26,423 nucleotides of DNA from a virus. The notes below the pieces were generated by a model. It saw only the letters and a program-made list of their open reading frames with translations. It was not told where the DNA came from and ran no database searches. Position 1 is the first letter of the stretch. Each line of letters begins with the position of its first letter. Below are positions 78 to 18,466 of the stretch, in pieces. The translations under genes and the position numbers were made by a program. The DNA lies in the IMG/VR virus record IMGVR_UViG_3300036768_001575, positions 1 through 26,423 of that record; one strand, written 5' to 3'.

Positions 78-425
78 ATGGAGGAGCTACGCAAACTCCG
101 CTGGCGCGACTTCTGCGACGGCCTTGACAAAGACCCGCCTGACGACATCCAAAAGGAAGCCGAGCACATCTTCTTTGACCATGTTTTCCCAGAGTCCGTA
201 CTCACCTTCTTTCAGAACGTCAGCGAGCTACTCCTGCTCTATGAGGCTGCCCCCTCCGCACCTGCCATGAAGACCATTGCCGACGCCAAGTTCAAAGAGC
301 TATTCAAACAGAACCCCATCCCGTTTTACGAGTCGCTCATACCAGCGCTCAAAAATATGGGAGCCGATCCTGAAACTGCAACCTTCTTAGAGGTATGCGC
401 TTACTTGACTACCTACAAGTCGTAA
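78..425 (+). CDS. Small phage protein before portal, unknown
   Basis: A 115-residue acidic, mostly helical-looking protein with no motif I recognise. The start at 78 follows a TATCTTTG box by 5 nt, and no in-frame upstream ATG competes. Its last 31 nt overlap the start of the portal gene in another frame, so the two are probably translated together. Position next to portal suggests a head-assembly or packaging accessory role, and a small-terminase role is conceivable. No terminase small subunit is recognisable elsewhere in the window, but I see no DNA-binding helix-turn-helix to support that reading. Confidence 0.7.
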   Translation: MEELRKLRWRDFCDGLDKDPPDDIQKEAEHIFFDHVFPESVLTFFQNVSELLLLYEAAPSAPAMKTIADAKFKELFKQNPIPFYESLIPALKNMGADPETATFLEVCAYLTTYKS

Positions 426-1396
426 TCCGCCTCATTAGGCCAGAGCGGAACCGGAAGGGACAGCGCGTGCTCCAAGACTTCCATGAATACGGCCTGGGCC
501 GCACTACCGACATCACGAACGCACTACCGCCACAGACCCCCTTAGAATGCCTCCAACGGATCGCCGACGTCCGGGCCATCCACTCCCTTATTGCCGGCGC
601 CTCCGCCCGCCTCACCTGGAAGGTAGCCCAGCGCTACAATGGCATGGAAGTCCCCGATGAATTCCGTTCCCGCAACCTTGACCGCTACGCGGGGCATATC
701 GTAGCTGACTACCTCGTACTGGGGCAGGCCTTCTTCACCGAAAACTTCACCTACGTCAGCCCTTTAGAGGCCTTCCCGGATACCACATTCAGCATTAAGC
801 GCCCCAACGGCACCCCGCTCCAGTCAGCCTTTTGGCTCATGCGCCAGTTTTGGGAGCTCAATCGCGCCGAAACGCAAATACTCTTCCTCATGGGCGCCGC
901 TGCCTTCCTCTACCCCAAAGACTCCAACATGCCCCTAACTGGCGACGAACTGGATCAGCTCCGCAAAAACCTCCAAGACAAAGTCCGAAAGGGTGGCGTC
1001 GGGGGGATTGAACCCGTCTCCGTACCCATCGAGCTCATCCCAGTCCCTATAAATAATGAGAAATATCAACTCATAGGAATCCGCACTCAGCTCATCCGCG
1101 AACTCTGTAATCTCTTCCAAATAGATAGCTCCCTCCTGAACGACCCTGAAAACAAAACCTATAGCAATAAAACCCTCGCCCTCAAAGCGCTCTACACCAA
1201 CGTCATCATCCCCACCGCCTACGAAGTGGCGTATGCCCTCCAAACCCGCACCCTTGACTATGTCATTACGATAGAGACCTCCAACATTGAACTACTCCAT
1301 GAAGACCGCGTCGCTCAGGCCGATTATGTGCTCACGCTCCTGGATGCCGGCCTTATCACGCCTGAACAGGCTAAAAGCCTCTTAGAGCTGGAGTAA
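395..1396 (+). CDS. Phage portal protein
   Basis: A 333-residue protein, short for a portal (commonly about 380-500). The C-terminal third carries the best signature: a segment around residues 228-268 reading like LIRELCNLFQIDSSLLND followed by a TYSNKTLALKALYTNVIIP-like stretch. This matches the portal pattern of a structural helix, a loop, then the 'tysn..a....y...i.P' wing-to-stem region. The central GQAFFTENF (about residues 106-114) also resembles portal cores. In the known family, portals form a dodecameric ring at one capsid vertex that threads DNA and anchors the tail. The gene overlaps the upstream small gene by 31 nt and converges with the VRR-NUC gene with a 15-nt tail overlap. Terminase is not adjacent but 5 kb away, which is unusual. 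Confidence 0.75.
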   Translation: MRLLDYLQVVIRLIRPERNRKGQRVLQDFHEYGLGRTTDITNALPPQTPLECLQRIADVRAIHSLIAGASARLTWKVAQRYNGMEVPDEFRSRNLDRYAGHIVADYLVLGQAFFTENFTYVSPLEAFPDTTFSIKRPNGTPLQSAFWLMRQFWELNRAETQILFLMGAAAFLYPKDSNMPLTGDELDQLRKNLQDKVRKGGVGGIEPVSVPIELIPVPINNEKYQLIGIRTQLIRELCNLFQIDSSLLNDPENKTYSNKTLALKALYTNVIIPTAYEVAYALQTRTLDYVITIETSNIELLHEDRVAQADYVLTLLDAGLITPEQAKSLLELE

Positions 1397-1818: not shown

Positions 1819-4776
1819 ATGCCACAGGAACGAGGCAAAGGTAAGAACTTTTTAGCACACGCAAGGGGTGCGGCGGAGAAGTTAGGCCTTCGGGTGTTCC
1901 CTATCAAAGAGGGCAAAAAGGCGCCGCCGCAAGTTGATGACTGGCCGAATAAGGCGACTTCGGATGTAGCGCAAATAGAAAAGTGGTGGGGGAAAGACCC
2001 AAGAGCGAACATCGGCGTAGCGCTGGGACGGTATAGGGATGGGTATCTTATCGTCATAGACTACGACCCACGAAATGGCGGGTACTGGGATGATCACCTT
2101 GAGGCGGGGATGCTGCCCGAAACTTGGGTGGTGCATACGCCAAGCGGCGGGCGGCATTATTATTACAGGACGGACGAGCCCGGGCGGAACGCCAAACTTG
2201 GGCCTGGGATTGATCTAAAAGGGGATGGAGGGTATGTGCTTTTCCCCCCGTCCGATTATTACAATGATGACGGGGAGTATGTGGGCGATTATGTGTGGCA
2301 GGTGGGGAACATGCCGAAGGATGTGAAAATTGCCGATGCGCCCAGTTGGGTCTTAGAGAAGTTGCGGGAGAAGGGTAGCGCTGGGGAGGGAAAAGAAGGG
2401 GAGCAGCTGGCCCTTTGGCGCATGCCACCACCCATCCCCAAGGGTTCGCGGCATAACTACCTTGTCTCTCTGGCCGGAGTGCTATGGGCAGCTGGGGCGG
2501 CCGAAAAGGAGATTGAGGCGGTGCTATGGGGGGTACTGGAGCTCTTTGAGACCAGAGAAGACTTTGACCCTGAGGCGGAAATCGGCGGCATACTCAAAAG
2601 CCTGAATAGCTGGGAGCGGAAAGGGGCGGACTGGGGCGCTATCCTGCATTCTCTCCCTACGGCGGTGCGGGAGATCGTTATTCGTGAGGTGGCTGCTGCT
2701 AAGGATTTGGCCAACGCTAATGCCGAGCGCATCCGGGAAAACCGCCGGCTGGCCACCGAGCTCGTCCGCACGATGGCGGTACGGAAAAAGGAGGACGGAA
2801 GCCTATGGTGGGTGTATCAGATGCCGGACGGGACTGAGCGGGAAGTACCCTACACCGCCGCAGGCCTCCAAGGCCTCCTGAAAGACCTCGGCATAGACGT
2901 AAGCATAAAAGAAGCTGGACGGCTCCTAAGCGTAGTCAGCGACGGAGAGCATAAGGGCAAAGGCAAAAAGTCCAAAGCGGTCAGCTTTGAGGATATCCTT
3001 GAGGTCGTATGGAAACATAAGTGGATTGAGTGGGGCGGCGAAACCTGGCTTTTGGAACCCCCGCTACTCACCCGCGCCAATATAGACAATATCCGGGCGC
3101 TCCTACTCCAAAACGGCTTAGAGATCAGCAAGGAGCGGCTGAATACCTTCTTTGACAAGCTGATGAAGTTCCTACCCGTCAGCCCCATGGACGGCGTGGT
3201 CGTATCCGAAGCGCCCAGATTTGGCAAGGCGGGCGGGATAAAAGGCCTCTGGTTACGGCAAAAGAATGACCTTTATGTAATAACGAAAGACGGCGTAAAG
3301 CACTTCCCCTTCGGGCAATGGCCGGAGGGGGTTTATGTGCTGGACTTGCGCCAGAGGGACTACATGATTGACTGGAACGGCACCCTGGAAGACCTAATCG
3401 CTTACTGGGACGGCGTTACGAACCGGCTGGTGGGCGATAAGCTCATAGCCTTGGCCATGTACCTCCCGGCCCTCTTAGACCAGGGCCACATCGGCCTCAT
3501 CCTACGCGGGCCAGCTGGGTCGGGTAAATCCACCCTCAAAAAGGCCCTGGGCTACCTACGCCTCGGAAAAGCCCCAAAAACCCCGCACGGCGCAACCACC
3601 CGCGACTTCATGGCCGTACTACACCAGAAAGCTATGGTCTTCTTTGACGAAGTGAGCGCCATGCCAGACGAAATGCAGACGGCCCTCAAAAGCATGATCA
3701 CCGGCGATGGTATGGCCATGCGCTCACTCTACACAGACTTAGAAGAGGTAGAAAGCGATATGATGGGCTCCGCCGTCTTCTGTGCTACCAAGCTGGAATA
3801 CATCCATTCCGACCTACGCACGCGGTGCTTTGTCTGGGAGCTGGAAAACAAAGGCGGCGGGGAATACGAAGATGAAATAGAGGATTTCTGTAAAAAGCTC
3901 TGGCGCCGCGCCCTCGCCGGGGCCATAAAGCTCTACCAGCAGGCCGCTAAGCTGCCTCCCCCACCCAAAACCCTACTCCCCGAAATCCGCTTCCGCCGCT
4001 GGGTATCTTGGGCATACCGATATGCCCAAGTGTTAGGGGTGGCAGATAAATTTGTCTCCTTCGTGCGGAAGGCCAAAATAGCCGCCCACAAGGGCGAAAA
4101 GTTTGAATTCCTGATTGACGCCCTCTCTAACCCCAACTTTGACCCCAACAAAGAATACACCATAAACGAACTCATTGAACTGGCAGACCCGGCCGGCGCC
4201 AACCTGCGCGGCATCGGCCAGTCCCTAAACAGGGAAAGCGTCAGGGACGCCATCATCACCTTGGCCCTCTCAATGGGCTATCACCTGCAAATAGAAAAGA
4301 AGCGCCTGAAAGGCGAAACAAAGGCCAAACTGCGCTTCTTCTTCACCCAGCTCCAAACTGGCGACAACTCCCGCCTCAGGGCCATCCTCAAAAGCAGGGG
4401 CATAGAACCAGATGACGACGACGATACCACACCCCCACCTGTACCTAACCCACCAGAGCCGCCCACACCACCAACTACGGCGCCAACTGAACCCTCCGAA
4501 CCTACAACCCCACCACCACAGCCACCTACACCGCCACCACAAAACGACGAGCCGCCTACCGACGAGGAGGTGATCGCCTACATAGAAAACGCTATGGCCG
4601 AGCATGACCGAAAAGGTGGTACCACCGAGCAAAAGCTCCTATACCTCTACCGGTTCAGAGAGCGGTTCGGCACAGAACTTGCCCAAAACGGCCTACATAA
4701 GGCCCGCGATTATATCCAAACGAAGATTTCAGAACTGGAAACCACCCTACAACCAGAAACACCAAAACCAACATAG
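1819..4776 (+). CDS. PrimPol-helicase replication protein
   Basis: 985 residues. The N-terminal region (about 15-190) is a bifunctional primase/polymerase of the archaeo-eukaryotic primase type: catalytic pair D81/D83 in VIDYDPRNGG, then SGGRHYYY with H113, then the IDLKGDGGYVLFPPS block at 131-145. The middle is a P-loop helicase of the phage/plasmid primase-helicase kind: Walker A GPAGSGKS at 564-571, Walker B AMVFFDEVSAM with D610/E611, and an arginine-rich DLRTRCF sensor region near 670. Residues about 865-914 form a Pro/Thr/Glu linker, followed by a small C-terminal domain of about 70 residues. Such proteins prime, and can extend, DNA at a phage or plasmid origin. No separate DNA polymerase is visible in this window. 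The iteron region about 1.1 kb downstream is the obvious candidate target (inference). Confidence 0.9.
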   Translation: MPQERGKGKNFLAHARGAAEKLGLRVFPIKEGKKAPPQVDDWPNKATSDVAQIEKWWGKDPRANIGVALGRYRDGYLIVIDYDPRNGGYWDDHLEAGMLPETWVVHTPSGGRHYYYRTDEPGRNAKLGPGIDLKGDGGYVLFPPSDYYNDDGEYVGDYVWQVGNMPKDVKIADAPSWVLEKLREKGSAGEGKEGEQLALWRMPPPIPKGSRHNYLVSLAGVLWAAGAAEKEIEAVLWGVLELFETREDFDPEAEIGGILKSLNSWERKGADWGAILHSLPTAVREIVIREVAAAKDLANANAERIRENRRLATELVRTMAVRKKEDGSLWWVYQMPDGTEREVPYTAAGLQGLLKDLGIDVSIKEAGRLLSVVSDGEHKGKGKKSKAVSFEDILEVVWKHKWIEWGGETWLLEPPLLTRANIDNIRALLLQNGLEISKERLNTFFDKLMKFLPVSPMDGVVVSEAPRFGKAGGIKGLWLRQKNDLYVITKDGVKHFPFGQWPEGVYVLDLRQRDYMIDWNGTLEDLIAYWDGVTNRLVGDKLIALAMYLPALLDQGHIGLILRGPAGSGKSTLKKALGYLRLGKAPKTPHGATTRDFMAVLHQKAMVFFDEVSAMPDEMQTALKSMITGDGMAMRSLYTDLEEVESDMMGSAVFCATKLEYIHSDLRTRCFVWELENKGGGEYEDEIEDFCKKLWRRALAGAIKLYQQAAKLPPPPKTLLPEIRFRRWVSWAYRYAQVLGVADKFVSFVRKAKIAAHKGEKFEFLIDALSNPNFDPNKEYTINELIELADPAGANLRGIGQSLNRESVRDAIITLALSMGYHLQIEKKRLKGETKAKLRFFFTQLQTGDNSRLRAILKSRGIEPDDDDDTTPPPVPNPPEPPTPPTTAPTEPSEPTTPPPQPPTPPPQNDEPPTDEEVIAYIENAMAEHDRKGGTTEQKLLYLYRFRERFGTELAQNGLHKARDYIQTKISELETTLQPETPKPT

Positions 4777-4778
4777 AT

Positions 4779-5111
4779 ATGGCCAACAAAGAAATGGAAA
4801 AGATTGAAAACCTCAACGCCATCATCAGCATGGCATTGACCAGCTACTACGCTGCCGCTAGAAGCAGAGACGACCTCTTAGACACCGCCTGCGGTGCCCC
4901 TTGGCTGCCAAAAGCACAAGAATACATCTCACACGCCGCCATCATACAACGCATCTGCAACGGCCTCTGCCAAGAACTCAAAGACCTACATGAGCTGAAA
5001 GAGAAAATAGAAAAGCAGGCCGATAAGGAACTCAAGATCATCATTGAGCATATAGAGAGTGCGGGGAACAATAGTCAGACAGGCAAGGACGCGCCGGAAG
5101 AGCGGCCTTAG
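4779..5111 (+). CDS. Small coiled-coil protein, unknown
   Basis: A 110-residue protein starting 2 nt after the primase-helicase stop, so almost certainly co-transcribed with it. The second half (about residues 60-95) is a charged heptad-like helix rich in K, E and L, consistent with a coiled coil. No catalytic motif or membrane segment is visible. Its position suggests a replication accessory role such as a primase-helicase partner, but nothing in the sequence proves it. The last 4 nt overlap the end of the convergent gene on the other strand. Confidence 0.7.
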   Translation: MANKEMEKIENLNAIISMALTSYYAAARSRDDLLDTACGAPWLPKAQEYISHAAIIQRICNGLCQELKDLHELKEKIEKQADKELKIIIEHIESAGNNSQTGKDAPEERP

Positions 5112-5779
5112 GATGTACGGGGCGGCCTTAGCGGTAGATAATCCCTCCGCATCTCAAAATGTTTCACCAACGCAAGTAGTTTCTCAACTTTTTTGAGCCA
5201 TACAGGGTCGTTCAGCTTGCTTTCCAACTCCTCAATCCATTCAGCCACTTCCTCTATCCCAGCCCCCTTCGCCCATGCCTCCCTCCAAGCAACTATCCGC
5301 CACCTCATCTTCTCATAAATAAACCCCACTATACCAGCCTCCATCGGCTGTTGCCGCCAATACTCCTCATCCCAATCCCATGCATGCCATCCGCTACCTT
5401 CTACATAAATAAGTTCATTCATATACTCTACCGCGATAATTTCGGCCACAAAGCCGGGGTGGATAGAATGCCTCCCCATTCTGGTAGGAAGCTGATGGAA
5501 TCCACCACACCATAAACCGACTTCTACCTTCTCTCTAAACCGCTCCTCATCAAAGTCGTCAAAGTCGGATATAGACTTTACTACGTCATCATACAACTTT
5601 TGCTCGACCTTCTCAAAGCGCTCGCCTAAAACGGCCTTCATCCTCCCAAGATGGAAGAAAATCCGAAAAACATCGCGGGGCCAATATAACTCTTCTATGT
5701 AATCAATCTTCCGATGCAATTCAAAAACGATACAATCAGCAAGCCCTTGCGCTATAAGTTCCGCCTTGACTGCGTCCAT
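5108..5779 (-). CDS. Unknown protein, paralogue of the 15297 gene
   Basis: A 223-residue acidic, Trp-rich protein of unknown function. It is homologous along its length to the product of 15297-15989. Shared landmarks are an early GLA(D/K)C, a (G)ER/DRFE..., a central GGxxQLPxxMGxxSIHxGxVA stretch, (E)GSGWxxW, GIVGxIYExMRxRIxxWREA and AEWIEELESKxNDPxWLxxVE near the end. I chose the ATG at 5779 because it aligns with the paralogue's start and because 17 nt (CGTATATTTGTGGCATG) are identical at both starts, including a TATATTTG box. An in-frame upstream start would lie inside that promoter. No known domain recognised; the conserved His in SIHxG could be functional but this is speculative. Confidence 0.8.
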   Translation of the reverse strand: MDAVKAELIAQGLADCIVFELHRKIDYIEELYWPRDVFRIFFHLGRMKAVLGERFEKVEQKLYDDVVKSISDFDDFDEERFREKVEVGLWCGGFHQLPTRMGRHSIHPGFVAEIIAVEYMNELIYVEGSGWHAWDWDEEYWRQQPMEAGIVGFIYEKMRWRIVAWREAWAKGAGIEEVAEWIEELESKLNDPVWLKKVEKLLALVKHFEMRRDYLPLRPPRTS

Positions 5780-5783
5780 GCCA

Positions 5784-5791
5784 CAAATATA
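5784..5791 (-). promoter_or_regulatory. TATATTTG promoter box
   Basis: A perfect TAnnTTTG box on the minus strand, 4 nt before the ATG at 5779. The same 17-nt block, box plus start codon, recurs before the paralogue at 15297. Confidence 0.6.
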
Positions 5792-5848
5792 CGACCTTCC
5801 CGCCAAACACAAGGCCCCTGCCTCTACCTTACCCTCTCCCCAGCCGCC

Positions 5849-6146
5849 TTAACCTGTTACCCCTGAATTTAACCTGTGCCCCTCGGATTTAACCTGTGCC
5901 CCTCGGATTTAACCTGTGCCTACCTGCGAGGGGACGACGTAACTGACTCCTCTATGCCCTCCCCAACGGGGCGCCGCACCACTCTTACCCTGTTACCCAT
6001 GTTCCCCTACGGGCTTTTTTCTCCTTTACCGCCTTATCCTATGCCCTCCCGGCTTATCCTGTGCCCTCCCGGCTTATCCTGTGCTTATCCAGCTTAACCT
6101 GTACCCCCCATATTTAACCTGTTACCCCTGAATTTAACCTGTGCCC
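5849..6146 (+). repeat. Rightward iteron array
   Basis: TTAACCTGT-type cores begin at 5849, 5869, 5889 and 5909, an exact 20-bp period. A variant TTACCCTGT sits at 5985. A second exact 20-bp series begins at 6034, 6054, 6074, 6094, 6114 and 6134, whose first three members read TTATCCT. Spacers are C/T-rich (for example TACCCCTGAAT or GCCCTCCCGGC). Confidence 0.85.
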
Positions 6147-6209
6147 ATTTGTGAGGATAAGACACGATCCCCTTCGCTACGGCCTTCCCGGCGGTTTTTC
6201 GCTCCCGGC

Positions 6210-6337
6210 TTAACCTGTTACCCATGTTTCCCTATGGTTTTTTACCCTCTTTATTCACCACTTCTCCGCCCACCTTACCCCCTACCCCTATTTTTTTACT
6301 AGTCGGAAAAAATAGGAGAACATGGGTAACAGGTTAA
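6210..6337. repeat. Long inverted repeat around origin centre
   Basis: TTAACCTGTTACCCATG at 6210-6226 is matched by its exact reverse complement at 6321-6337. Similarity continues inward for several bases. Each arm contains one iteron, so the two arrays are joined by a mirrored pair. The interval is C/T-rich and encloses the AT-rich hairpin. Confidence 0.75.
6287..6316. repeat. AT-rich hairpin at origin centre
   Basis: CCTATTTTTT (6287-6296) pairs with AAAAAATAGG (6307-6316) across a 10-nt loop that contains the palindrome ACTAGT. It is the most AT-rich spot of the region and sits at the mirror point of the two arrays, so it is a good candidate for the unwinding element. Confidence 0.6.
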
Positions 6338-6345
6338 GTCTGGTT

Positions 6346-6382
6346 AAAAACCCCTTCGCTACGGCCTTCCCAGCGGGTTTTT
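6346..6382. terminator. Terminator-like hairpin in the origin region
   Basis: AAAAACCC (6346-6353) pairs with GGGTTTTT (6375-6382). An inner CGCT/AGCG can extend the stem with a short bulge. The symmetric A and T tracts would allow it to work on either strand, possibly insulating origin transcription. Confidence 0.4.
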
Positions 6383-6386
6383 GGCC

Positions 6387-6554
6387 TTAACCTGTCAAAA
6401 TGGGCACAGGTTAAATAAGGCGGGCACAGGTTAAATCGGGGGTAACAGGATAAGCTGTGCGGGTACAGGATAAGCCGGGTAAGCACATGGGTAAGCCGTA
6501 TGGGCACAGGTTAAATCGGGGGGGCACAGGTTAAGATGGCGGGGCACAGGTTAA
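6387..6554 (-). repeat. Leftward iteron array
   Basis: ACAGGTTAA or ACAGGATAA cores (reverse of the left array) begin at 6406, 6426, 6445, 6465, 6506, 6526 and 6546. A weaker ACATGGGTAA at 6485 fills the gap, so the period is 19-21 bp throughout. One rightward copy, TTAACCTGT at 6387, faces them. The last copy ends about 20 bp before the TerL promoter box, so the binding protein could also control terL. Confidence 0.85.
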
Positions 6555-6574
6555 GCGCCTACATCCCGCGCCAT

Positions 6575-6585
6575 TTCGTACTTTG
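6575..6585 (+). promoter_or_regulatory. Promoter-like box before terL
   Basis: TTCGTACTTTG resembles the TTCGTAnnTTTG element before the primase and sigma-like genes but is one base shorter in the spacer. The ATG follows 6 nt later at 6592. Confidence 0.4.
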
Positions 6586-6591
6586 TAGCGG

Positions 6592-7698
6592 ATGCAGGTC
6601 GTATTGCGGACGGCGAAGCGCATCGCTGACTTTTTAGAGGCGAACCGCCATCGGCGGTATGTGATTTTGCGCGGCGGGACGCGGGCGGGGAAGACCTACA
6701 ACACCCTGATCTATCTACTGAAACGTGCGATGCAGGAGGGGCAGGATATCGGGGTTGTGGGGGCCCACTTGGTGCGGTTGCGTGAGACGGCGCTGAGGGA
6801 CTTTGAGGAGATCGTCAAAGACCTCCCCATGATAGACTACAATCGCAGCCTGCTGGTATTCAGCTTCCCCAGTGGCGGGCGGGTGAAGTTTTTCGGTGCG
6901 GACAAGGGGATAAAGCTGCGGGGGGCGAAGCGGGATATCCTCTTTATCAACGAGGCGAACGCGGTGGACTTTGACGTATTCTCGGAGCTGGATGTGCGGA
7001 CGACGACGCAGGTGATTTTGGACTTCAATCCGACTGGGCGGTTTTGGATCAACGAGTTCATGGAGTCGCACCCGCACCCGGAGTGGTTTGCGGAGGGTGT
7101 TTTCACCTACCGGGACAATCCCTTCATCTCGTCTGAGCATGTGCAGGCGATAGAGGCGCGGAGCAGGGATGCCCGCTGGTGGAAGGTTTTCGGCGAGGGG
7201 GAGTGGGGTGAAGCCAGTGGGCTGGCGTGGTATAACTACGAGGTGGTGGATGGCCTGCCGGAGACGGCGAAGCTGATGGCTGTGGGAGTGGATTTTGGCT
7301 TTACGCGGTCGCCGACGGCGGTGGTGGGCGTGTGGAAGTTAGGCTCGGACTTCTATGTGAGGGAGTTATTGTATCGGCATAACTTAAGGTTGGAGGAGCT
7401 TGGGGCATTTTTGAGGCAGTACCGGGATGCGCCCTACATTGTGGCGGACTCTGCGGAGCCAGACTTGATAGCAGCGCTGCGGCGGCAATACAATGTGCCA
7501 GTGGTACCGTGTCGGAAGCTGGAGCTGAAGGCCAGTTTTGCCATGATAAACGCCATACGGGTGCGGGTGGTGTCGGGGTCGCAGAACTTGCTGAATGAGG
7601 CGTATAAGCTATGCTGGGAGGGAGATCGGTTGCTTGGGGTGGATGATCATGCGATTGATGCGATGCGGTATGCGCTGCATGGGGTGATGGCAAAGTAA
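6592..7698 (+). CDS. terL: Terminase large subunit
   Basis: 368 residues, short but complete. ATPase: Walker A GGTRAGKT (28-35), Walker B KRDILFINEAN with D115 and E121, and the coupling motif VILDFNPTG (141-149). RNase-H-like nuclease: D234 in VGVDFGF, D286 in VADSAEPD and D351/D352 in VDDHAIDAMRY. This is the packaging motor that cuts concatemers and pumps DNA through the portal. The GGTRAGKT and DFNPTG forms resemble the PBSX/SPP1-like branch (family knowledge). The gene stands alone just right of the iteron region. No small subunit is recognisable next to it. Its last 398 nt overlap an opposite-strand open frame. Confidence 0.93.
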   Translation: MQVVLRTAKRIADFLEANRHRRYVILRGGTRAGKTYNTLIYLLKRAMQEGQDIGVVGAHLVRLRETALRDFEEIVKDLPMIDYNRSLLVFSFPSGGRVKFFGADKGIKLRGAKRDILFINEANAVDFDVFSELDVRTTTQVILDFNPTGRFWINEFMESHPHPEWFAEGVFTYRDNPFISSEHVQAIEARSRDARWWKVFGEGEWGEASGLAWYNYEVVDGLPETAKLMAVGVDFGFTRSPTAVVGVWKLGSDFYVRELLYRHNLRLEELGAFLRQYRDAPYIVADSAEPDLIAALRRQYNVPVVPCRKLELKASFAMINAIRVRVVSGSQNLLNEAYKLCWEGDRLLGVDDHAIDAMRYALHGVMAK

Positions 7699-8482
7699 AG
7701 ATGTCCGCCGGAGCAGAGTCTGAGTATTCTAAGCAATCGCCCTCTGAGGATTGGAGTGGGAGGTAGCGCGAGAAGGTTTTTTCGCGCATGCCGCAGGCGA
7801 CGGCGGCGTACTTGCGGCCGAGCTGCTTAGTGAGTTCGGCCGAGACGCGGAGGAAGGCCTCCATGAGATCGGATGTTGCCAGGGTGTCTGGCGAGCCCGG
7901 ATCGGTCTGGCTGACGGGTGCGGTGGGCTCATCATCGTCGTCGCCATCCTCCTCATTGTTTTCTTCATACAGGCAGAGGGCTTCTTCCATGATGTAGAAG
8001 TCCTCATGCGGGGTAACTACGGCCGGGGCTTTGAGTTTTTTTCGCCAGTAGGCTTTGAGTGCGTGCCGAAGGACTTGACGGCCGAGGCGGAAGAGGTGTT
8101 CTTCGTCATCGACTTCGTAGATGCACAGGCCTAGGATGGTCTCCTGTACGAGGTCTTCGGCGTCCATGCGGTCTTGGACTTTGGCGAGGGCGAGCTTCAT
8201 GAGCATGCTTTGGAGCTTTCGGAAGGTTTGGGGGTTGTCAATCATCTTGGCGGTGGTTTCTACGACGGGAGCGAGCGCGCGCTGCGTGGAGAGTAGGTGT
8301 TTTTTGGCGTACTTGGTATTTTCGTGCTGTTTAGCCCTTTTGCCCCTGGCGCTGAGCGGTTTCGGCTCTACGTGGCTGAAGTCTGAGTTTATGCCGAGCC
8401 GTTCGGCCACTTCGTTGGGTTGGACGCCCCATAAGGTGGCCAGTGCTGCCACCCCGTTGTCGAGGTGCACGCGGGAAAGCAT
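7301..8482 (-). CDS. Sigma-70-like factor, antisense to terL end
   Basis: A 393-codon frame from the ATG at 8482, chosen because a TACCTTTG box ends 7 nt upstream. Residues 10-31 could be a helix-turn-helix (ATLWGVQPNEVAERLGI). Residues 95-150 look like sigma-70 region 2: DAEDLVQETILGL followed by HLFRLGRQVLRHALKAYWRKKLK, the pattern of core-binding and -10-recognition helices. An acidic linker (165-200) leads to a possible region-4-like helix pair at 206-241 (RKYAAVACGMREKTFSRYL). Residues 262-393 lie antisense to terL, are Ser/Pro/Ala-rich and are probably not a folded domain. The true stop may have been lost or the tail may be tolerated. If real, the protein would redirect host RNA polymerase to phage promoters. 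Moderate confidence in the sigma call. Confidence 0.5.
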   Translation of the reverse strand: MLSRVHLDNGVAALATLWGVQPNEVAERLGINSDFSHVEPKPLSARGKRAKQHENTKYAKKHLLSTQRALAPVVETTAKMIDNPQTFRKLQSMLMKLALAKVQDRMDAEDLVQETILGLCIYEVDDEEHLFRLGRQVLRHALKAYWRKKLKAPAVVTPHEDFYIMEEALCLYEENNEEDGDDDDEPTAPVSQTDPGSPDTLATSDLMEAFLRVSAELTKQLGRKYAAVACGMREKTFSRYLPLQSSEGDCLEYSDSAPADIFTLPSPHAAHTASHQSHDHPPQATDLPPSIAYTPHSASSATPTPPAPVWRLSWQNWPSAPASDTVPLAHCIAAAALLSSLAPQSPPQCRAHPGTASKMPQAPPTLSYADTITPSHRSPSLTSTRPPPPSATA

Positions 8483-8686: not shown

Positions 8687-8699
8687 CCAGCTGGGGCCG

Positions 8700-8734
8700 A
8701 AAAGTGTACGCGCCCAGACATTAATAGGGGTGGT
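8700..8734 (+). promoter_or_regulatory. Regulon element, copy 1
   Basis: AAAAGTGTACGCGCCC followed by AGACATTAATAGGGGTGGT and the ATG at 8735. One of four near-identical copies in the window, each touching a start codon. TAGGGGTGG could act as a ribosome binding site. The conserved upstream GTGTACGCG half points to a promoter or operator. Confidence 0.75.
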
Positions 8735-9283
8735 ATGACTGCAAACATGAGTAAGGGCAACGGCCCTAAGAAAGACCAGCAGCCTCTCTGGCGGCGAAAA
8801 GCGAACTACATGCTCAGGGAACTGGTGCGCGCAGGGCATGGCCTGCCGTACGACACGGCGGTGATATGGGGATTGAACTATGCCCTTGCGGACATCCTGC
8901 ATACCTTCGCAAAGGAGAACGATTTGCCCGTCCCCAAGCTGATTTTCTGGTTTGACCGATTTTGGGAAGAGTTTTCTAAGGACTTAGGCGAACGGATTTT
9001 GACAATAGCCGATAGCATGAAGCTTGCGGATATTCTGCTCTCAGGTTTTCCGCCGGACAAGATGGATGTGGGCCGGCGTTTTGTTCGGAGCGAGAGTATA
9101 TGTAGCATGATACACTTGGCCAGCATACTCTTTCTAAGCGAAAACCGGCCTGGCGCCCTTTTAGCTTATTTCAGCAGCATGAAATGGCCATTGGCGTATT
9201 ATGAGGCCTTGGATGTAGCGCCGCTGGACTCCTTCACGATCTGGTATGTGAAGCGCGTGCATTTTGGGGGTAGTGAAAACTAA
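8735..9283 (+). CDS. RELAR-array family protein, copy A
   Basis: A 182-residue member of the paralogue family that fills 10955-15206, separated from it by the small-gene trio and the methylase. The N-terminal signature PLWRRKANYMLRELVRAGHG (about residues 15-34) aligns with PKWRLKANFLLRELARMWYG of the others. The C-terminal AYYEALDVAP aligns with YYEALPVDPE. The middle is the most diverged of all copies. The start is fixed by the regulon element and by alignment; in-frame upstream ATGs fall in the terminator region. Function unknown; it looks soluble and helical with no signal peptide. Confidence 0.8.
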   Translation: MTANMSKGNGPKKDQQPLWRRKANYMLRELVRAGHGLPYDTAVIWGLNYALADILHTFAKENDLPVPKLIFWFDRFWEEFSKDLGERILTIADSMKLADILLSGFPPDKMDVGRRFVRSESICSMIHLASILFLSENRPGALLAYFSSMKWPLAYYEALDVAPLDSFTIWYVKRVHFGGSEN

Positions 9284-10917: not shown

Positions 10918-10954
10918 AAAAAAGTGTACGCGGCCAGACATTAATAGGGATGCT
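10918..10954 (+). promoter_or_regulatory. Regulon element, copy 2
   Basis: AAAAAAGTGTACGCGGCC then AGACATTAATAGGGATGCT and the ATG at 10955. It has one base change in the GCG(C/G)CC part relative to the other copies. Confidence 0.75.
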
Positions 10955-11932
10955 ATGGCAACGCATGGCGAAAACATCGGCTCACGGAAGGTTGAGCCGG
11001 AGACGAACGGGCTGCCCAAGTGGCGGCTGAAAGCGAACTACGTGATGCGCGAACTGGCGCGCACATGGTACGGGAAGGATAGCGCCCTGCCTTTCCCAGT
11101 CGATCCACACCGCTTTGAGCACCTTTTGATTGAGGTCTTATGGCAATTCGTAGAAGACCATAGCATAAGGGGCAGTAGTGTGCTGGAAATGCTTAGGCAT
11201 GCCAGAAAGGAGTTTGAGGCTATCCATGGGCGGGAGATTGAGTTCAAAGACTGGATTGACAGGTTTGACTGGATGATAGAGGCTGGTCTCCCAGCACACT
11301 TACATAAAGAATTCAGCCGAGACGAACTGATACAGGACATATTGCGCACGATTGAGTGGCTCATCCACTACGCTACGGATGAAGAAGAAAAAACGGAACC
11401 CCCATTGCCTTCTATGAGTTGGCTCAAGCCGCTTGAGCACTACGAGGCCTTGCCGGTCTTGCCACCTACCCCGCATTGGTGTCTTTTAGTGAATGAAGTC
11501 GAGCGGGAACTGGCTTATGTCTGGCATGGCCACAGGCCGTATAATCCTAATGCTATCCGTGGCAAGCTTATGAAGGCGCTTTTTGAGTATGCGGATTATA
11601 TGAGGGATTATTCCGGGGAGGGTAGTCATGAGGCTTCTAAGCGCTTAAAGGATGGCATGGCAGAGTTTGAAAGTCGGCATGGGTTCTGTCTTGAATTCAA
11701 AACACCAGCGCGGGAAATAATCTGGATGGCGAAGACGGGGTTGCCGTTGCCTCACAGTTTTCTGTGCGAACCACGAGTGAAGCGTGTTCTGCGCGCTTTT
11801 GAGTTAATCCATATACTGAGTAAGGCAAAGGCTTCCAAGCCTTATAGTCTGTACTCTGTTGTTTTTCAGAACATTAGCCATTACGACAATCTGCAACCAT
11901 CAAAATTTTCGTGGGACTATGATGAAGACTGA
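10955..11932 (+). CDS. RELAR-array protein B, two fused units
   Basis: 325 residues holding two family units in one chain. Unit 1 (about 20-168) runs from PKWRLKANYVMRELARTWYG to HYEALPV. Unit 2 (about 173-325) runs from PHWCLLVNEVERELAYVWHG to SHYDNLQP, aligning with the same landmarks. The RHGF near 241 matches the HG of the family centre. Other copies are single units of 170-200 residues, so this is a tandem duplication that became an in-frame fusion. It is the first gene of the seven-gene run and follows the regulon element directly. The stop overlaps the start of gene C by 14 nt. Confidence 0.8.
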   Translation: MATHGENIGSRKVEPETNGLPKWRLKANYVMRELARTWYGKDSALPFPVDPHRFEHLLIEVLWQFVEDHSIRGSSVLEMLRHARKEFEAIHGREIEFKDWIDRFDWMIEAGLPAHLHKEFSRDELIQDILRTIEWLIHYATDEEEKTEPPLPSMSWLKPLEHYEALPVLPPTPHWCLLVNEVERELAYVWHGHRPYNPNAIRGKLMKALFEYADYMRDYSGEGSHEASKRLKDGMAEFESRHGFCLEFKTPAREIIWMAKTGLPLPHSFLCEPRVKRVLRAFELIHILSKAKASKPYSLYSVVFQNISHYDNLQPSKFSWDYDED

Positions 11933-12458
11933 GATGACACACGAAGGCCTGCCCAAGTGGCGGCTGTATGCGAACTTCCTAATCCGAGAAGTGGCCCGGA
12001 TGTGGTACGGCCAGAAAAGCGTATTTGACCTTAGCAAAGGCTATGGCCCAGATTCCCCGTTTTGGCGGGAGTTTGTAGCCATCTTTGACGAGATGGTCAA
12101 ACTTTTCGGCAAAGAGCACGGCCTGACTGAGGAAGTGATGTACGACCGCCTCTGGGAGGCAAACTGGAACTGGCAGATGTGGCATGGTGATGGGCCGACT
12201 TTTAGCCAGCCCTATTTTGAGGCGAAGTGGAAGGCCAAGCATCGGCTGGGGGATGAGCTGTACAAAAAGCTGCTTGACGATTTTGACGTGGAGGTAAGCC
12301 TGAGCCTTATAGGGTACGCCTCCGGCTTTGCCCGCAATGGCAAAAAGCAGCCCTACAAGGATATTGTGCGGATTAGGCCCATTGCGGACTACGAGGCTTT
12401 ACCGGTCGATCCGGAGCTGGAGGATAGGTATTACAATGGCGATGCTTTACCTTTCTAA
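11919..12458 (+). CDS. RELAR-array protein C
   Basis: 179 residues. PKWRLYANFLIREVARMWYG near the N-terminus, DSPFWREFVAIF, FGKEHGL, a WHGDGPTFSQPYFEAKWKAK centre and a YEALPVDPELEDRYY C-terminus ending LPF. The start could be 11919 or the next ATG at 11922; the latter matches the MKTE start of gene D. The stop codon TAA is itself the start of a TAACTTTG box that may serve gene D. Function unknown. Confidence 0.8.
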   Translation: MMKTEMTHEGLPKWRLYANFLIREVARMWYGQKSVFDLSKGYGPDSPFWREFVAIFDEMVKLFGKEHGLTEEVMYDRLWEANWNWQMWHGDGPTFSQPYFEAKWKAKHRLGDELYKKLLDDFDVEVSLSLIGYASGFARNGKKQPYKDIVRIRPIADYEALPVDPELEDRYYNGDALPF

Positions 12459-12463
12459 CTTTG
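12456..12463 (+). promoter_or_regulatory. Stop-embedded TAACTTTG box before gene D
   Basis: The TAA stop of gene C forms the first three bases of TAACTTTG. The 19-nt context CTTTACCTTTCTAACTTTG (12445-12463) is repeated exactly at 14120-14138. The distance to the ATG at 12481 is 17 nt, longer than at most other genes here. Confidence 0.45.
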
Positions 12464-12480
12464 CCATAAATCTGACGCAT

Positions 12481-13077
12481 ATGAAAACGGAAAGAGTACA
12501 AAAACGGGAAAGCCTGCCTAAATGGCAGCTGTATGCGAACTTCATCCTTAGAGAGCTCGCATGTTTATGTTATGGCGAGAAGAGCGTTTTTGACCTTGAC
12601 AGCTTCTATTATGGCGATGAAGCGCCGTATTGGGAGTATTTTAGACGTCTTTTTGGCTCTCTGATTTGGCATTATGGCGATGCGCACGGGATTTCTGCCG
12701 AAGAGTTGAACGACCGCATGGATAAGGTATATAAGGAGCTGGAGAAATGGCAAAATATGAGTCTAAGATTTCGTTCCCCCTCAAATGAGGCTATATGGTT
12801 TGCTATGCGGGTATTGGGCGAGGAGGAGGCCAAAGAGTTTTTTAGCGAGCTTGAAGTGAAGGAGATAATCAATACCATTGCGAACGCCTATGTTATGATT
12901 GCCCAAGGCAAAGAGCCGCCATATACGGATTTTGTGATACTGCGCCCCCTCGCATACTACGAGGCTTTGCTAGTTGCGCCAGAGCTGAATGGTATAGCAG
13001 AGGTCGTAAAAACCTTTCGGAGCGATATTGACGCCTATGACGACGGAAAAGGTACAAACACAGGACGGCAATCTTGA
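12481..13077 (+). CDS. RELAR-array protein D
   Basis: 198 residues. The start MKTERVQKRE is set by alignment; longer in-frame starts lie inside gene C. PKWQLYANFILRELACLCYG is followed by a middle that departs from C, E, F and H: instead of HG..F..PY.EAKW it reads SPSNEAIWFAMRVLGEEEAK, a form shared only with gene G. The C-terminus keeps AYYEALLVAPE, then runs on past the usual end into DIDAYDDGKGTNTGRQS. That tail is an out-of-frame reading of the start of gene E, showing that the original stop was lost. It overlaps gene E by 41 nt. Confidence 0.8.
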   Translation: MKTERVQKRESLPKWQLYANFILRELACLCYGEKSVFDLDSFYYGDEAPYWEYFRRLFGSLIWHYGDAHGISAEELNDRMDKVYKELEKWQNMSLRFRSPSNEAIWFAMRVLGEEEAKEFFSELEVKEIINTIANAYVMIAQGKEPPYTDFVILRPLAYYEALLVAPELNGIAEVVKTFRSDIDAYDDGKGTNTGRQS

Positions 13078-13609
13078 GTGGCAAAAGTGGCGCCTACAAG
13101 CGAACTTCCTACTTCGTGAACTGGCTCGCTTATGGTACGGCAAAGAGAGCATACTTAGCCTGAGGCGCGGTCTTTTTGGGCTGAAGCGAGGCATTAGAAA
13201 GTCCGATCCGTTTTGGCGACACTTTGTTTGCCTTTTCCGTGAGGTGGCTGAGAGTTTTGGCGAAGAGCATGGGCTTAGCAAACTAAAAATGGGGCTGAGC
13301 TATCTTGACGCTACTGAGGAGTGGGGGGCCTGCCATGGTCGGCCTATAGCTTTCAGCGAGCCTTACTGGGAGGCCAGGTGGACTGCCAAACACATATTGG
13401 GGGATGGGCTGTTTGGGAAGTTGACTGCCGATAGAGATATTAGGACGATACTTTACGTGGCCAAGTTCATTTATGGCGAGGTGGCTAAGGGCAAGCTGCC
13501 GCCGTATGATGATACAGAGCTCCAGCCGCTTACCTATTATGAGGTCTTGCCTGTTGATCCAGAGCTGGTAGAGCAGTACTATGTCAAACCCACTTCGCAA
13601 AAATCCTGA
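13037..13609 (+). CDS. RELAR-array protein E
   Basis: 190 residues from the ATG at 13037 (MTTEKVQTQDG), favoured over a TTG three codons earlier because GACGCCTATG precedes other family starts too. QKWRLQANFLLRELARLWYG, SDPFWRHFVCLF, FGEEHGL, CHGRPIAFSEPYWEARWTAK, then YYEVLPVDPELVEQYY. It carries a small insertion (RRGLFGLKRGIRK) after the N-terminal helix. It ends KPTSQKS at a TGA inside the AAAAATCCTGACGCCTATGG junction. Confidence 0.8.
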   Translation: MTTEKVQTQDGNLEWQKWRLQANFLLRELARLWYGKESILSLRRGLFGLKRGIRKSDPFWRHFVCLFREVAESFGEEHGLSKLKMGLSYLDATEEWGACHGRPIAFSEPYWEARWTAKHILGDGLFGKLTADRDIRTILYVAKFIYGEVAKGKLPPYDDTELQPLTYYEVLPVDPELVEQYYVKPTSQKS

Positions 13610-13614
13610 CGCCT

Positions 13615-14133
13615 ATGGCAGAGCGTAAGAAACGGGGGCGGCCTGAATGGCGGCTAAAAGCTAACTTCCTACTTAGGGAACTTGCCCGCATGTGGCATGG
13701 CCAAAAGAGCATTTTTGACCCCAGTAGTGAGTACTCTTGGCGGGATTTTGTTCGCCTTTTTGTCGGGCTTACCTACGACTTCGGCGAGGAACACGGCGTG
13801 AGTGAGAAGGAGGCGGCCATGAGGCTTGTAGATGCTATTGGGAAATGGCTAACTTGGCATGGGCAGCGGCCGACTTTTAGCTCGCCTTACTTTGAGGCGA
13901 AGTGGCACGCCATCCAGATGTTGGGCGAGGAGCTGGCCGAAAAGATGTTTGACGACTTTGACATCGGCGTAATCCTGAGTTTCGTAGAATACGCCTACAC
14001 CTTTGCATCCAAAGGCCAAATGCCGCCGTATAAACCTTTTGCAAGGATGGAGGCCTACGAAAACTTTGAGGCCTTGCCCGTCGATCCGTGGTGGGAAGAT
14101 CGGTACTATAAAGATGAACCTTTACCTTTCTAA
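13615..14133 (+). CDS. RELAR-array protein F
   Basis: 172 residues, the shortest intact single unit. MAERKKRGRPEWRLKANFLL is close to the start of gene H at both protein and DNA level. It lacks the D(S/D)PFW segment (about 6-10 residues shorter there) but retains FGEEHGV, WHGQRPTFSSPYFEAKWHA, FDIGVIL and ALPVDPWWEDRYY. It ends LPF like gene C, with the stop TAA again inside TAACTTTG. Starts 5 nt after gene E ends. Confidence 0.8.
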   Translation: MAERKKRGRPEWRLKANFLLRELARMWHGQKSIFDPSSEYSWRDFVRLFVGLTYDFGEEHGVSEKEAAMRLVDAIGKWLTWHGQRPTFSSPYFEAKWHAIQMLGEELAEKMFDDFDIGVILSFVEYAYTFASKGQMPPYKPFARMEAYENFEALPVDPWWEDRYYKDEPLPF

Positions 14134-14138
14134 CTTTG
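14131..14138 (+). promoter_or_regulatory. Stop-embedded TAACTTTG box before gene G
   Basis: The stop of gene F supplies the TAA. The ATG of gene G follows 6 nt later at 14145, a spacing like the leaderless promoters elsewhere. Internal initiation within the array is therefore likely. Confidence 0.5.
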
Positions 14139-14144
14139 ACACCT

Positions 14145-14720
14145 ATGACGACGGGGGAAATACAGGGACAAGAAGGCCGAACTGGGGGGGCTAAATGGAG
14201 GCTGTATGCGAGCTTCCTGCTCCGCGAGCTCACTCGGATGTGGTATGGAAAGAAAAGCATATTTGATGCTAGCGAAATCCTTGACCGCCACTCCCCTTTT
14301 TGGGAAAGGTTTAGGCATATTTTTAGCGGTATGGTCATAAGTTTTGGCGAGATTCTTGGTCTTGCGGATGAGGAAATAAAGAATCGCATTGAAAAGATAG
14401 AGAAGGATACTCATGGCGATTCACTTCCAGATTTCAGTCATCCTACCCACGAGGTGGTTTGGTTTGCTGAGCAAGTTCTCGGCGAGGAACAGGCTAAATG
14501 GCTTTTGAGCGACCTTGTGATTGGTTGGATATTTATTATTGTTGTAAAGACAGAACACCTTGTAGCTAATGGGGAAAAGCCTCCATACGGGAGGAAGGGC
14601 TATCTCCCGTCGCTTGAAGCCTGCGAGCGTTTTTCGCGGGTAGCGCCAGAGCTGGAAGAAATGTACTACGGCAAAAATCCTGACGCCTATGGCCGAGCGG
14701 GAAAACCGGGAGCTTCCTAA
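14145..14720 (+). CDS. RELAR-array protein G
   Basis: 191 residues. The start MTTGEIQGQEG resembles gene E (MTTEKVQTQDG). AKWRLYASFLLRELTRMWYG, HSPFWERF, then the D-type centre HPTHEVVWFAEQVLGEEQAK. The C-terminus is degenerate (LEACERFSRVAPELEEMYY) and runs into KNPDAYGRAGKPGAS, an out-of-frame reading of the start of gene H. So G, like D, lost its original stop and overlaps its neighbour (32 nt). A hydrophobic helix (VIGWIFIIVV, about residue 126) is unusual in the family. Confidence 0.78.
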   Translation: MTTGEIQGQEGRTGGAKWRLYASFLLRELTRMWYGKKSIFDASEILDRHSPFWERFRHIFSGMVISFGEILGLADEEIKNRIEKIEKDTHGDSLPDFSHPTHEVVWFAEQVLGEEQAKWLLSDLVIGWIFIIVVKTEHLVANGEKPPYGRKGYLPSLEACERFSRVAPELEEMYYGKNPDAYGRAGKPGAS

Positions 14721-15206
14721 GTGGAAGCTAAAAGCGAACTGGCTCCTTCGTGAGCTTGCCCGTACATGGTACGGCAAGGAGAGTATATTTGACCTTAGAT
14801 ACGGCCATGACGAGCGCTCCCCATTTTGGCAGCACTTCGTTTCTATTTTTCGGGACTTGGCTAGGATTTCGGCGAGGCGCATGGGCTGACCAAAGATGAG
14901 ATGTCTAAGCGCCTTGATGAGGCTTTTGAAGATTGGGTGAGCTGCCATGGGTGGCCTATGCATTTCAGAGAACCTTACGGGGAGGCTAAGTGGAGAGCCA
15001 AACAAATGCTCGGCAAAAAACTGCTGATAAAACTATTTGACTATTCCTTTGTTATAGGCATAATGCTGTGCGTAGTCAGGGCAATATACCACTATGCCTC
15101 GGAGGGAAAAATGCCGCCGTATGGCGAGATGGCGTATTTCAAGTCGCTCGAATATTACGAAGCACTCCCCGTCGACCCAGATTTAGAAGACCTTTACTAC
15201 GGCTGA
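14689..15206 (+). pseudogene. RELAR-array copy H, frameshifted
   Basis: The first frame, MAERENRELPKWKLKANWLL onward, stays in family register through SPFWQHFVSIFRDLA, then reads nonsense and stops at 14889. From about 14865 the next frame continues the family exactly: DFGEAHGLTKDEMSKRLDEA, CHGWPMHFREPYGEAKWRAK and YYEALPVDPDLEDLYYG to 15206. The join lies in 14861-14869 (CTAGGATTT). Restoring one base (for example A, giving codons AAG GAT TTC) repairs the frame. There is no slippery heptamer, so a one-base deletion, or a sequence error, is likelier than programmed shifting. The downstream half has lost almost no similarity, so the event is recent. Confidence 0.8.
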
Positions 15207-15230
15207 CCCAGCCCAGCCGCAAGCCTACCG

Positions 15231-15259
15231 CCCCCGCCTTCGGGCGGGGGTTTTCGTTT
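15231..15259 (+). terminator. Intrinsic terminator closing the array
   Basis: CCCCCGCC-ttcg-GGCGGGGG followed by TTTTCGTTT. A UUCG tetraloop hairpin 25 nt after the last family gene. Confidence 0.85.
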
Positions 15260-15284
15260 GTGCCTTGGGGTGGTGCGGAAGCCG

Positions 15285-15292
15285 TATATTTG
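15285..15292 (+). promoter_or_regulatory. TATATTTG promoter box
   Basis: A perfect TAnnTTTG box, 4 nt before the ATG at 15297. The flanking bases equal those before the paralogue at 5779 over 17 nt including the ATG. Confidence 0.6.
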
Positions 15293-15296
15293 TGGC

Positions 15297-15989
15297 ATGA
15301 ACGCGATCAACACGGAAGGGATTGCGGAAGGGCTGGCCAAGTGCTTCATCTATGAGGCCAACCGCTGGATTGAGAAAGCGGCGGCGAGAAAAGCGGATCG
15401 TTACAATAGCGTTTTTCGGGCCTTTCTAAATCTGGGGTGTATAAAAGCTATTTTAGGCGATCGGTTTGAGGAGGTTAGGCAGGAGCTACATAAGAAGGCC
15501 GAGGAGAGTATTGAATGTACTTTTTGCTCTGAGTCTTGGGTTAGTGATGCTGAGAGATCGGGGCTGAAGTACGGCGGGCGATTCCAGCTACCCAAAAAGA
15601 TGGGGGAGTGCTCCATTCACCATGGCCTTGTTGCAGGAATAGTTTCGCTGGAATTTGATAATAAACTCCGCTACTTTGAGGGATCGGGTTGGTATGTATG
15701 GCGACATGATGAAGGTGAATGGGAAGAGCGGCCGAAAGGGCGGGGCATTGTGGGTCTCATTTACGAGGTCATGCGGCAGAGGATAGCCGTATGGCGGGAG
15801 GCCATAGATGCGGGGATTGATGTGAGGGGTCTGGCGGAGTGGATAGAGGAGCTGGAAAGCAAGATAAACGATCCAGCCTGGCTCGATAGGGTAGAAGAGC
15901 TGCTTAGGCGGGTGGATTATTTTGGGGTGGAATGGATTTCTGAGGATAGTCCATACCGCCCTCGGAGCAAAAACAGGCGGAAGTCATAA
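15297..15989 (+). CDS. Unknown protein, paralogue of the 5779 gene
   Basis: 230 residues, homologous over its whole length to the minus-strand product at 5108-5779: GLAKC, LGDRFEEV, GGRFQLPKKMGECSIHHGLVA, EGSGWYVW, GRGIVGLIYEVMRQRIAVWR and LAEWIEELESKINDPAWL. The start is set by the shared promoter-start block. It is a single-gene unit between terminators at 15231 and 16038. The two copies lie about 9.5 kb apart in opposite orientation, so this is not a tandem duplicate. No known domain recognised. The conserved Trp, His and Glu positions suggest a binding or enzymatic role that cannot be named. Confidence 0.8.
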   Translation: MNAINTEGIAEGLAKCFIYEANRWIEKAAARKADRYNSVFRAFLNLGCIKAILGDRFEEVRQELHKKAEESIECTFCSESWVSDAERSGLKYGGRFQLPKKMGECSIHHGLVAGIVSLEFDNKLRYFEGSGWYVWRHDEGEWEERPKGRGIVGLIYEVMRQRIAVWREAIDAGIDVRGLAEWIEELESKINDPAWLDRVEELLRRVDYFGVEWISEDSPYRPRSKNRRKS

Positions 15990-16082: not shown

Positions 16083-16119
16083 AAAAAAGTGTACGCGCCC
16101 AGACATTAATAGGAGTGAT
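16083..16119 (+). promoter_or_regulatory. Regulon element, copy 3
   Basis: AAAAAAGTGTACGCGCCC then AGACATTAATAGGAGTGAT and the ATG at 16120. Identical to copy 4 throughout. Confidence 0.78.
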
Positions 16120-16455
16120 ATGAGACGCATCGTTTTCCTGAATGCGAACGACCTTTTGGAGTTCGCTTCGCAGTGCCCGAGGTGGAGACTGATGACGCTG
16201 TGCCGGGATTTAGTCCAGTCAGGGCCTGTAGCTTACATAGCGGCCCGACCGCAGGAGCGTGAGGGTGCTAAGTTAGCGGCGCAGATTTTTCGTGGTGCGG
16301 AGATAGTAGATCCGCGCACATTGCAGGCGCGCGGGTGGATCAATGAGGCGGACGAGCTGGCGCTGATAACTACCGATCCCGACTTAGGGCTGAAGCTGGT
16401 GGTGCTGAAAAAAGTCAAAGGAGTTGAAACAAATTCAAAAAACGTATGGATATGA
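16120..16455 (+). CDS. Small protein of recombination operon, unknown
   Basis: 111 residues starting MRRIVFLNANDLLEFASQCP. The start is fixed by the regulon element. I recognise no family. PRWRLMTLCRDLVQSG (about 20-35) faintly resembles the N-terminal signature of the RELAR-array family (PKWRL...LLREL), but the rest does not follow. It is first in a three-gene operon with a possible annealing protein and a Cas4-like nuclease, overlapping the next gene by 10 nt, so a recombination accessory role is a reasonable guess. Confidence 0.65.
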   Translation: MRRIVFLNANDLLEFASQCPRWRLMTLCRDLVQSGPVAYIAARPQEREGAKLAAQIFRGAEIVDPRTLQARGWINEADELALITTDPDLGLKLVVLKKVKGVETNSKNVWI

Positions 16456-18144: not shown

Positions 18145-18181
18145 AAAAAAGTGTACGCGCCCAGACATTAATAGGAGTGAT
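18145..18181 (+). promoter_or_regulatory. Regulon element, copy 4
   Basis: The same sequence as copy 3 up to the ATG at 18182. It follows the hairpin at 18115-18135 and opens the unit containing the SNF2 helicase. Confidence 0.78.
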
Positions 18182-18466
18182 ATGAAACGGGTAGAAGTTT
18201 GGCTGATAAACGAAGAAAGCGATCGGACGGTGCATGAGCACTTTGGGCAGCTTATAGAGGCCTACATCCCGCCTCGTGAAGAGTTTCTGGGCATTTGCGA
18301 AGCCTCGCCCCATGCGGTGGCTGAGCTGGCGGATGTGGACGACTGGAGTGCGGCTGAGGCGCTTGTCCGGCCATGGGAGCCCGTCTTAGTGGGTGAGTTG
18401 CATGAGGGAGATGTTTCGGCGCCGCTGTACCTTCTGGTAAGGCCGATTGTGCAGGCAAGCAAATAA
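18182..18466 (+). CDS. YIPP-family small protein 1
   Basis: 94 residues, acidic. MKRVEVWLINEESD, a helix with HFGQLIEAYIPP, an E(A/S)PHAVAELADVDDWSAAEAL helix and a C-terminal strand pair ending YLLVRPI. It is homologous along its length to the next gene (VEVWLI, EAYIPP/EPYIPP, A(S/T)P.AV..LA(D/E)V..W(S/A)A.EAL, VGE.(H/Y)E). The start is fixed by the regulon element. Function unknown; the strand-helix plan suggests a small alpha-beta fold. Confidence 0.75.
   Translation: MKRVEVWLINEESDRTVHEHFGQLIEAYIPPREEFLGICEASPHAVAELADVDDWSAAEALVRPWEPVLVGELHEGDVSAPLYLLVRPIVQASK

Follow-up and report, generated by a model that had tools for sequence, protein, structure and literature searches.

The window analysed here is the whole of IMG/VR virus record IMGVR_UViG_3300036768_001575 (26,423 bases), probably a fragment, and the repeat-rich region at 5829-6555 is very probably the bidirectional (theta-type) replication origin of this phage, with iterons that its PrimPol-helicase would read. 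The analysis itself yielded the repeats, their mirrored layout, an unstable centre, a switch of strand composition at the array, and the recurrence of this layout beside related genes. The switch of GC skew supports the earlier proposal, made from the sequence alone, of a probably bidirectional origin linked to the PrimPol-helicase. The genes around the array follow the order portal, VRR-NUC, PrimPol-helicase, a 110-aa ORF, a divergent ~223-aa gene, the array, and terL:

395-1396, plus strand: portal gene
1723-1382, minus strand: VRR-NUC nuclease gene
1819-4776, plus strand: PrimPol-helicase gene (985 aa), the proposed initiator
5108-5779, minus strand: divergent ~223-aa gene to the left of the array, with a promoter-like element TATATTTG at 5784
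6592-7698, plus strand: terL, the terminase large subunit gene and right neighbour of the array

The array is closer to terL than to the PrimPol gene, and its distance from the latter counts against the origin reading. About 1.07 kb, spanning the 110-aa ORF and the divergent ~223-aa ORF, separates the PrimPol stop codon from the first exact iteron, so that the primase gene, said in the sequence-only reading to lie just upstream, does so only in a loose sense. The element TAnnTTTG, the -7 element in promoters of Bacteroidota, is found 3-17 bp 5' of the start codon in several window genes, and TerL has its best matches in Bacteroides phages; on both grounds, the phage probably infects a member of the Bacteroidota.

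The 26.4-kb window has 19 exact matches to TTAWCCTGT, all of them within 5849-6554 and none elsewhere, against a chance expectation of 0.24; a count of 19 was reached in none of 100 shuffles. The top 9-mer of the region occurs 15 times, compared with at most 6 times in 500 dinucleotide shuffles. Together with two one-mismatch sites, the exact copies make up an array with the following parts:

5829-5917, plus strand: left module 1, with exact iterons at 5849, 5869, 5889, and 5909 on a 20-bp lattice and a degenerate site at 5829
5984-6003, plus strand: lone extended site of module 1 (CTTACCCTGTTACCCATGTT), 76 bp beyond the last iteron of the module
6033-6142, plus strand: left module 2, with six iterons (6034-6134) on a 20-bp lattice
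6209-6228, plus strand: inner site of the left arm (CTTAACCTGTTACCCATGTT), 76 bp from module 2
6275-6325, no strand: AT-rich, least stable 50-mers of the array (z +2.3), a candidate unwinding element
6319-6338, minus strand: inner site of the right arm, an inverted copy of 6209-6228
6386-6395, plus strand: single counter-oriented iteron, set against the mirror and forming a short palindrome with the 6406 site
6406-6555, minus strand: right module, with seven inverted iterons (6406-6546) and a degenerate site near 6485

The orientation of 20 of the 21 sites fits a mirror arrangement (p 0.0005 for random orientation). In module 2, the iteron at 6034 is TTATCCTAT with one mismatch, and those at 6054 and 6074 are TTATCCTGT. 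The minus-strand starts of the right module, at 6406, 6426, 6445, 6465, 6506, 6526, and 6546, are separated by gaps of 20, 19, 20, 41, 20, and 20 bp, and the 41-bp gap holds the degenerate site, which reads TTACCCATG on the minus strand. Lone sites start at 5985(+), 6210(+), 6329(-), and 6387(+), the first three of which have a longer word, CTTAMCCTGTTACCCATGTT, in common. The left side consists of two related modules, 5869-6028 and 6094-6253, which are 70% alike, a likeness suggesting that the array probably grew by module duplication. A direct search of IMG/VR for the iteron pair of the window found it in no other contig.

The centre of the array is enclosed by the two inner sites, 6209-6228 and 6319-6338, which form a perfect 20-bp inverted repeat around a hairpin with a 10-bp stem (6287-6296/6307-6316). 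Folding of the 259-nt centre is much more stable than that of its shuffled versions (z -4.4), and the hairpin potential of the spacer at 5920-6030 shows no excess over shuffles. A scan of the array region for sigma-70 promoters and terminators gave none above chance, and the window has no match to the DnaA box (TTWTNCACA). The sequence-only reading had described about twenty cores in 700 bp, starts exactly 20 bp apart at 5849-5909 and 6034-6134, an inverted series at 6406-6546, and a central hairpin, and all of these were borne out: the count is 19 exact and 2 near sites, every listed start is correct, the right series comprises seven minus-strand sites, and the hairpin is real and nested within the 20-bp arms.

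The strand composition of the window switches at the array, as examined by the GC-skew check that had been suggested together with the origin proposal. The cumulative GC-skew minimum falls at 6299, inside the AT-rich centre. In the closest relative, L009 (IMGVR_UViG_3300031950_000253, a 35.5-kb contig whose TerL protein is 90% identical to that of the window), it falls at 15078, inside an array of its own at 14945-15300. The arrays were masked because they are themselves strand-biased, and the minima, at 6577 in the window and 15358 in L009, still adjoined them. The depth of the skew V was matched in 1 of 5000 block permutations for the window and in 0 of 5000 for L009. The portal gene, on the plus strand in both, has a silent-site skew of -0.59 in the window and -0.67 in L009, whereas that of TerL, also on the plus strand, is strongly positive; transcription therefore does not explain the skew.

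L009 shares the order of portal, VRR-NUC, PrimPol, and TerL with the window, and no TTAWCCTGT array was found in its contig. Its own array (1863-2218 of the locus) lies between VRR-NUC and PrimPol, 5' of PrimPol and 5.8 kb from terL, and carries CTTACCCACA at 11 sites distributed over both strands, some of them spaced 20 bp apart; the mirror fit, with 9 of 11 sites, is not significant alone given the few sites (p 0.36). It resembles the array of the window in its two-strand repeats, some 20-bp spacings, the 76-bp gap between outer and inner sites, and the skew minimum inside, but differs in its core (CTTACCCACA instead of CTTAACCTGT), its position 5' of PrimPol, and its fewer and less regular sites. 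The array thus has PrimPol on one side in the window and on the other in L009, whereas portal and TerL lie on the same side in both. The fourfold sites of PrimPol contain 140 G and 204 C in the window but 260 G and 125 C in L009 (p=4e-13), with the gene direction unchanged, and the silent-site skews of portal and TerL show no difference between the two (p=0.43 and 0.88). The origin of L009 has moved to the other side of PrimPol, and the skew minimum has moved along with it. The pair is, in effect, a natural experiment in which the origin position changed and the strand composition followed. The sequence-only reading had counted against itself any related phage that keeps the primase and lacks repeats in this interval; L009 is such a phage to the letter, but a different mirrored array with a skew minimum sits 5' of its primase.

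One part of the skew profile is a misfit: the first quarter of the window PrimPol gene (1819-2560), on the array's negative side, has a silent-site skew of +0.39. This positive skew may, at a guess, be left over from an earlier origin position on the 5' side. A second local skew minimum was seen near 1.5-2 kb of the window, where L009 carries its array. In two Bacteroides phages with the nearest TerL, BS162P3 and BT638P8, skew simply tracks gene direction, and repeat clusters were found in only one of them. Skew alone is therefore insufficient for calling an origin, and these two phages neither support nor refute the origin reading.

The PrimPol-helicase has a clear Prim-Pol domain at residues 18-177, followed by a weak VapE-like AAA+ match at residues 560-657 (20.2 bits, below the Pfam cut-off of 25); its match to TIGR01613 scores 17.2 bits against a cut-off of 108.7. 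A winged-helix-like segment follows the AAA+ part at about residues 739-850 or, more narrowly, about 779-844. The full-length structural model (pLDDT 42) was set aside. The model of the C-terminal segment (pLDDT 72) gave weak matches led by RepE, Rep with iteron DNA, and RctB, which are suggestive only (E 0.06 and Z 5.1 for the weak best matches RepE and RctB). The winged-helix-like segment is an equal or better candidate for the iteron reader than the part put forward in the sequence-only reading, namely the C-terminal domain that follows the proline linker. The PrimPol proteins of the window and L009 share 51% identity overall; the figure is 57% for the primase domain, 60% for the AAA+ part, 49% for the post-AAA+ segment, and 39% for the tail. 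Searches of IMG/VR with PrimPol gave no confirmed relative from the single sequence and one close relative plus only distant Prim-Pol domains from an alignment; a sequence search of the PDB gave no relevant match. In the mechanism that we propose, the PrimPol-helicase would bind the iterons through its C-terminal DNA-binding domain, and each of the mirrored arms would assemble an oligomer of it, giving two oligomers in all. The centre between the inner sites (6209-6338) would then melt, one helicase ring would be loaded per arm, and both forks would be primed by the primase domain.

The surroundings of the array allow other functions to be considered. The array occupies a divergent intergenic region and faces both start codons, TATATTTG precedes the left gene, and the L009 array likewise lies between divergent genes (VRR-NUC and PrimPol), as would be expected of an operator array at which a phage regulator binds the repeats and controls two divergent promoters, that of terL and that of the ~223-aa gene. 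Such an operator predicts neither the skew minimum in each array and the unstable hairpin centre nor the recurrence of clusters at the 3' ends of VapE genes, and we regard it as unlikely as the main function, though origin and autoregulation could coexist in the array.

Its adjacency to terL (6592) might instead point to a packaging (pac/cos) site read by the small terminase, and in some Bacteroidota-type phages the VapE-linked clusters do lie shortly 5' of terminase genes; the L009 array, however, is far from terL and beside PrimPol, and the clusters of phages A2 and JNU_P5 come after the primase, within the replication module, which makes packaging quite improbable. Tandem short repeats on one helix face also mark plasmid centromeres, and the array might accordingly be the partition (centromere-like) site of a phage-plasmid, but no partition protein was recognised beside it and the skew and mirror layout favour replication; we give this reading very little credence. 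The bidirectional origin remains the best explanation of the array.

Several further features of the window were observed. The divergent gene at 5108-5779 (-) appears to belong to a ~230-aa family with other apparent members at 15297-15989 (+) and at 7272-7988 of L009; the family gene is inverted in the window relative to L009, which suggests that the segment beside the array has been rearranged. A 45-bp leader, AAAAAAGTGTACGCGCCCAGACATTAATAGGAGTGATATGA, is present in four copies (8698-8742, 10918-10962, 16083-16127, and 18145-18189) that are 82-98% alike and each end close to a start codon; copies also occur in L009, and the element may combine a promoter and a leader specific to the phage. 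An expanded family of seven paralogous genes, about 170-325 aa each, stands in tandem at 10955-14720, and neither of the two tested has a Pfam or PHROG match. A 393-aa ORF at 7301-8482 (-) overlaps the 3' end of terL on the opposite strand. It has TACCTTTG 7 bp 5' of its ATG, a counterpart at 8710-9882 of L009, and a Sigma70_r2 match below threshold; it may be real or a composition artefact.

Beyond the two related phages, we scanned for short words that recur on both strands. Two-strand clusters were found at the 3' ends of primase-helicase genes, with wholly different words, including ATCTTACCC, GTTACAGAT, GGTGACTAC, and AACCCTCGC. Among non-redundant VapE-type loci, 44 of 53 carry an 8-mer cluster on both strands no more than 600 bp from the stop codon, against 2 more in the remaining 407 kb; the cluster contains the least stable 50-mer in 44 of 63 loci, where 32% would be expected. 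In A2, JNU_P5, Pan4, and AmM-1, the cluster is at or shortly past the primase stop codon, and that of A2 is the annotated rep_origin. The arrays have a common layout of an outer cluster, a gap, an inner site, and an AT-rich centre, followed by the mirror image. The start-to-start distances (outer-inner gap/centre/inner-outer gap) are 76/120/77 in the window, 76/78/57 in L009, 64/75/56 in A2, 66/73/53 in JNU_P5, and 67/114/67 in Pan4. The window shows this A2-like layout, with oppositely oriented sets around an unstable centre, gaps of ~55-77 bp, and a centre of ~73-120 bp; the mirror orientation in A2, JNU_P5, and Pan4, each with few sites, is not significant singly (p 0.06-0.15). Mirrored iterons around an AT-rich centre are therefore usual next to PrimPol/VapE/D5-type primase-helicase genes, and the novelty that the sequence-only reading had seen in the mirrored layout does not hold. 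What is new here is the 20-bp phase instead of one of 9-12 bp, the presence of more than 20 sites in three modules, the displaced position, and the comparative pattern.

Within the VapE set, phage pairs that have a word in common are more alike in their C-terminal ~110 residues than would be expected from their helicase and N-terminal parts (p=0.0002); the reverse controls, for co-variation of the word with other VapE parts, were null (p=0.49 and 0.83). This co-variation fits a C-terminal reader of the iterons. In two related phage contigs, L075 (1536-1830) and L076 (7395-7600), different repeat words (TTTACACCA and TATCTTACCC) were seen at the same place; their terminase regions are similar and their replication genes seemingly different, and the repeats appear to move along with that gene. 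As a tentative proposal, somewhat more open to doubt than not, these arrays would represent a widespread origin class in Bacteroidota, Lactobacillus, cyanobacterial, and other phages, in which the phage primase-helicase reads mirrored iterons through its C-terminal domain, the 8-10-bp words change fast in step with the domain that reads them, and the origin is able to switch gene side. The window would be an enlarged version, with a 20-bp (two-turn) lattice and duplicated modules providing extended platforms for the loading of two opposed helicase rings. If this is true, a two-strand repeat cluster beside a primase-helicase gene would be a simple origin locator in many uncultured phages, and the natural pairing of reader domains with DNA words would form a data set from which the recognition code of the initiators could be learned.

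In the theta origins of lambda (O), RepE, and RK2, iterons bound by the initiator lie next to an AT-rich unwinding element. Lambda and the iteron plasmids have direct repeats, a one-sided AT-rich part, and loading of the host helicase, whereas the window has two mirrored sets and a phage-coded helicase. The origin of Lactobacillus phage A2 (AJ251789, rep_origin 32208-32717) is similar to that of the window in its mirrored outer and inner iterons (ACGGGAGGA in A2), its AT-rich centre, and the primase-helicase gene alongside. A2 has 7 sites with 12-bp spacing directly at the primase stop codon and a centre of 83% AT; the window has 21 sites with 20-bp spacing in three modules, 1.07 kb from the gene, with a weaker AT centre and another core. 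In the case of the SaPI Rep helicases, a C-terminal domain recognises iterons downstream of the helicase's own gene, and biochemical work has demonstrated such reading for Cch2, while for SaPI Rep it is stated (PMC7581432). The SaPI origins (SaPIbov1 and SaPI5, with self-loading Rep) and that of SCCmec Cch2, like the array of the window with its putative AAA+ helicase, have multiple short iterons linked to such a helicase, and the window has the SaPI-type trait of many short copies of one sequence; in sequence, the Rep families show only a distant relationship. A SaPI-type Rep helicase is self-loading and of the Primase_Cterm/D5 or DUF927 type, and on this trait the window protein offers its clear Prim-Pol domain and the VapE-like and TIGR01613 matches below cut-off. 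Their origins lie directly downstream of the helicase gene, whereas the array of the window does not and that of L009 is 5' of the gene; membership of the SaPI kind is therefore not claimed, and by analogy the array of the window may work like a SaPI-type origin.
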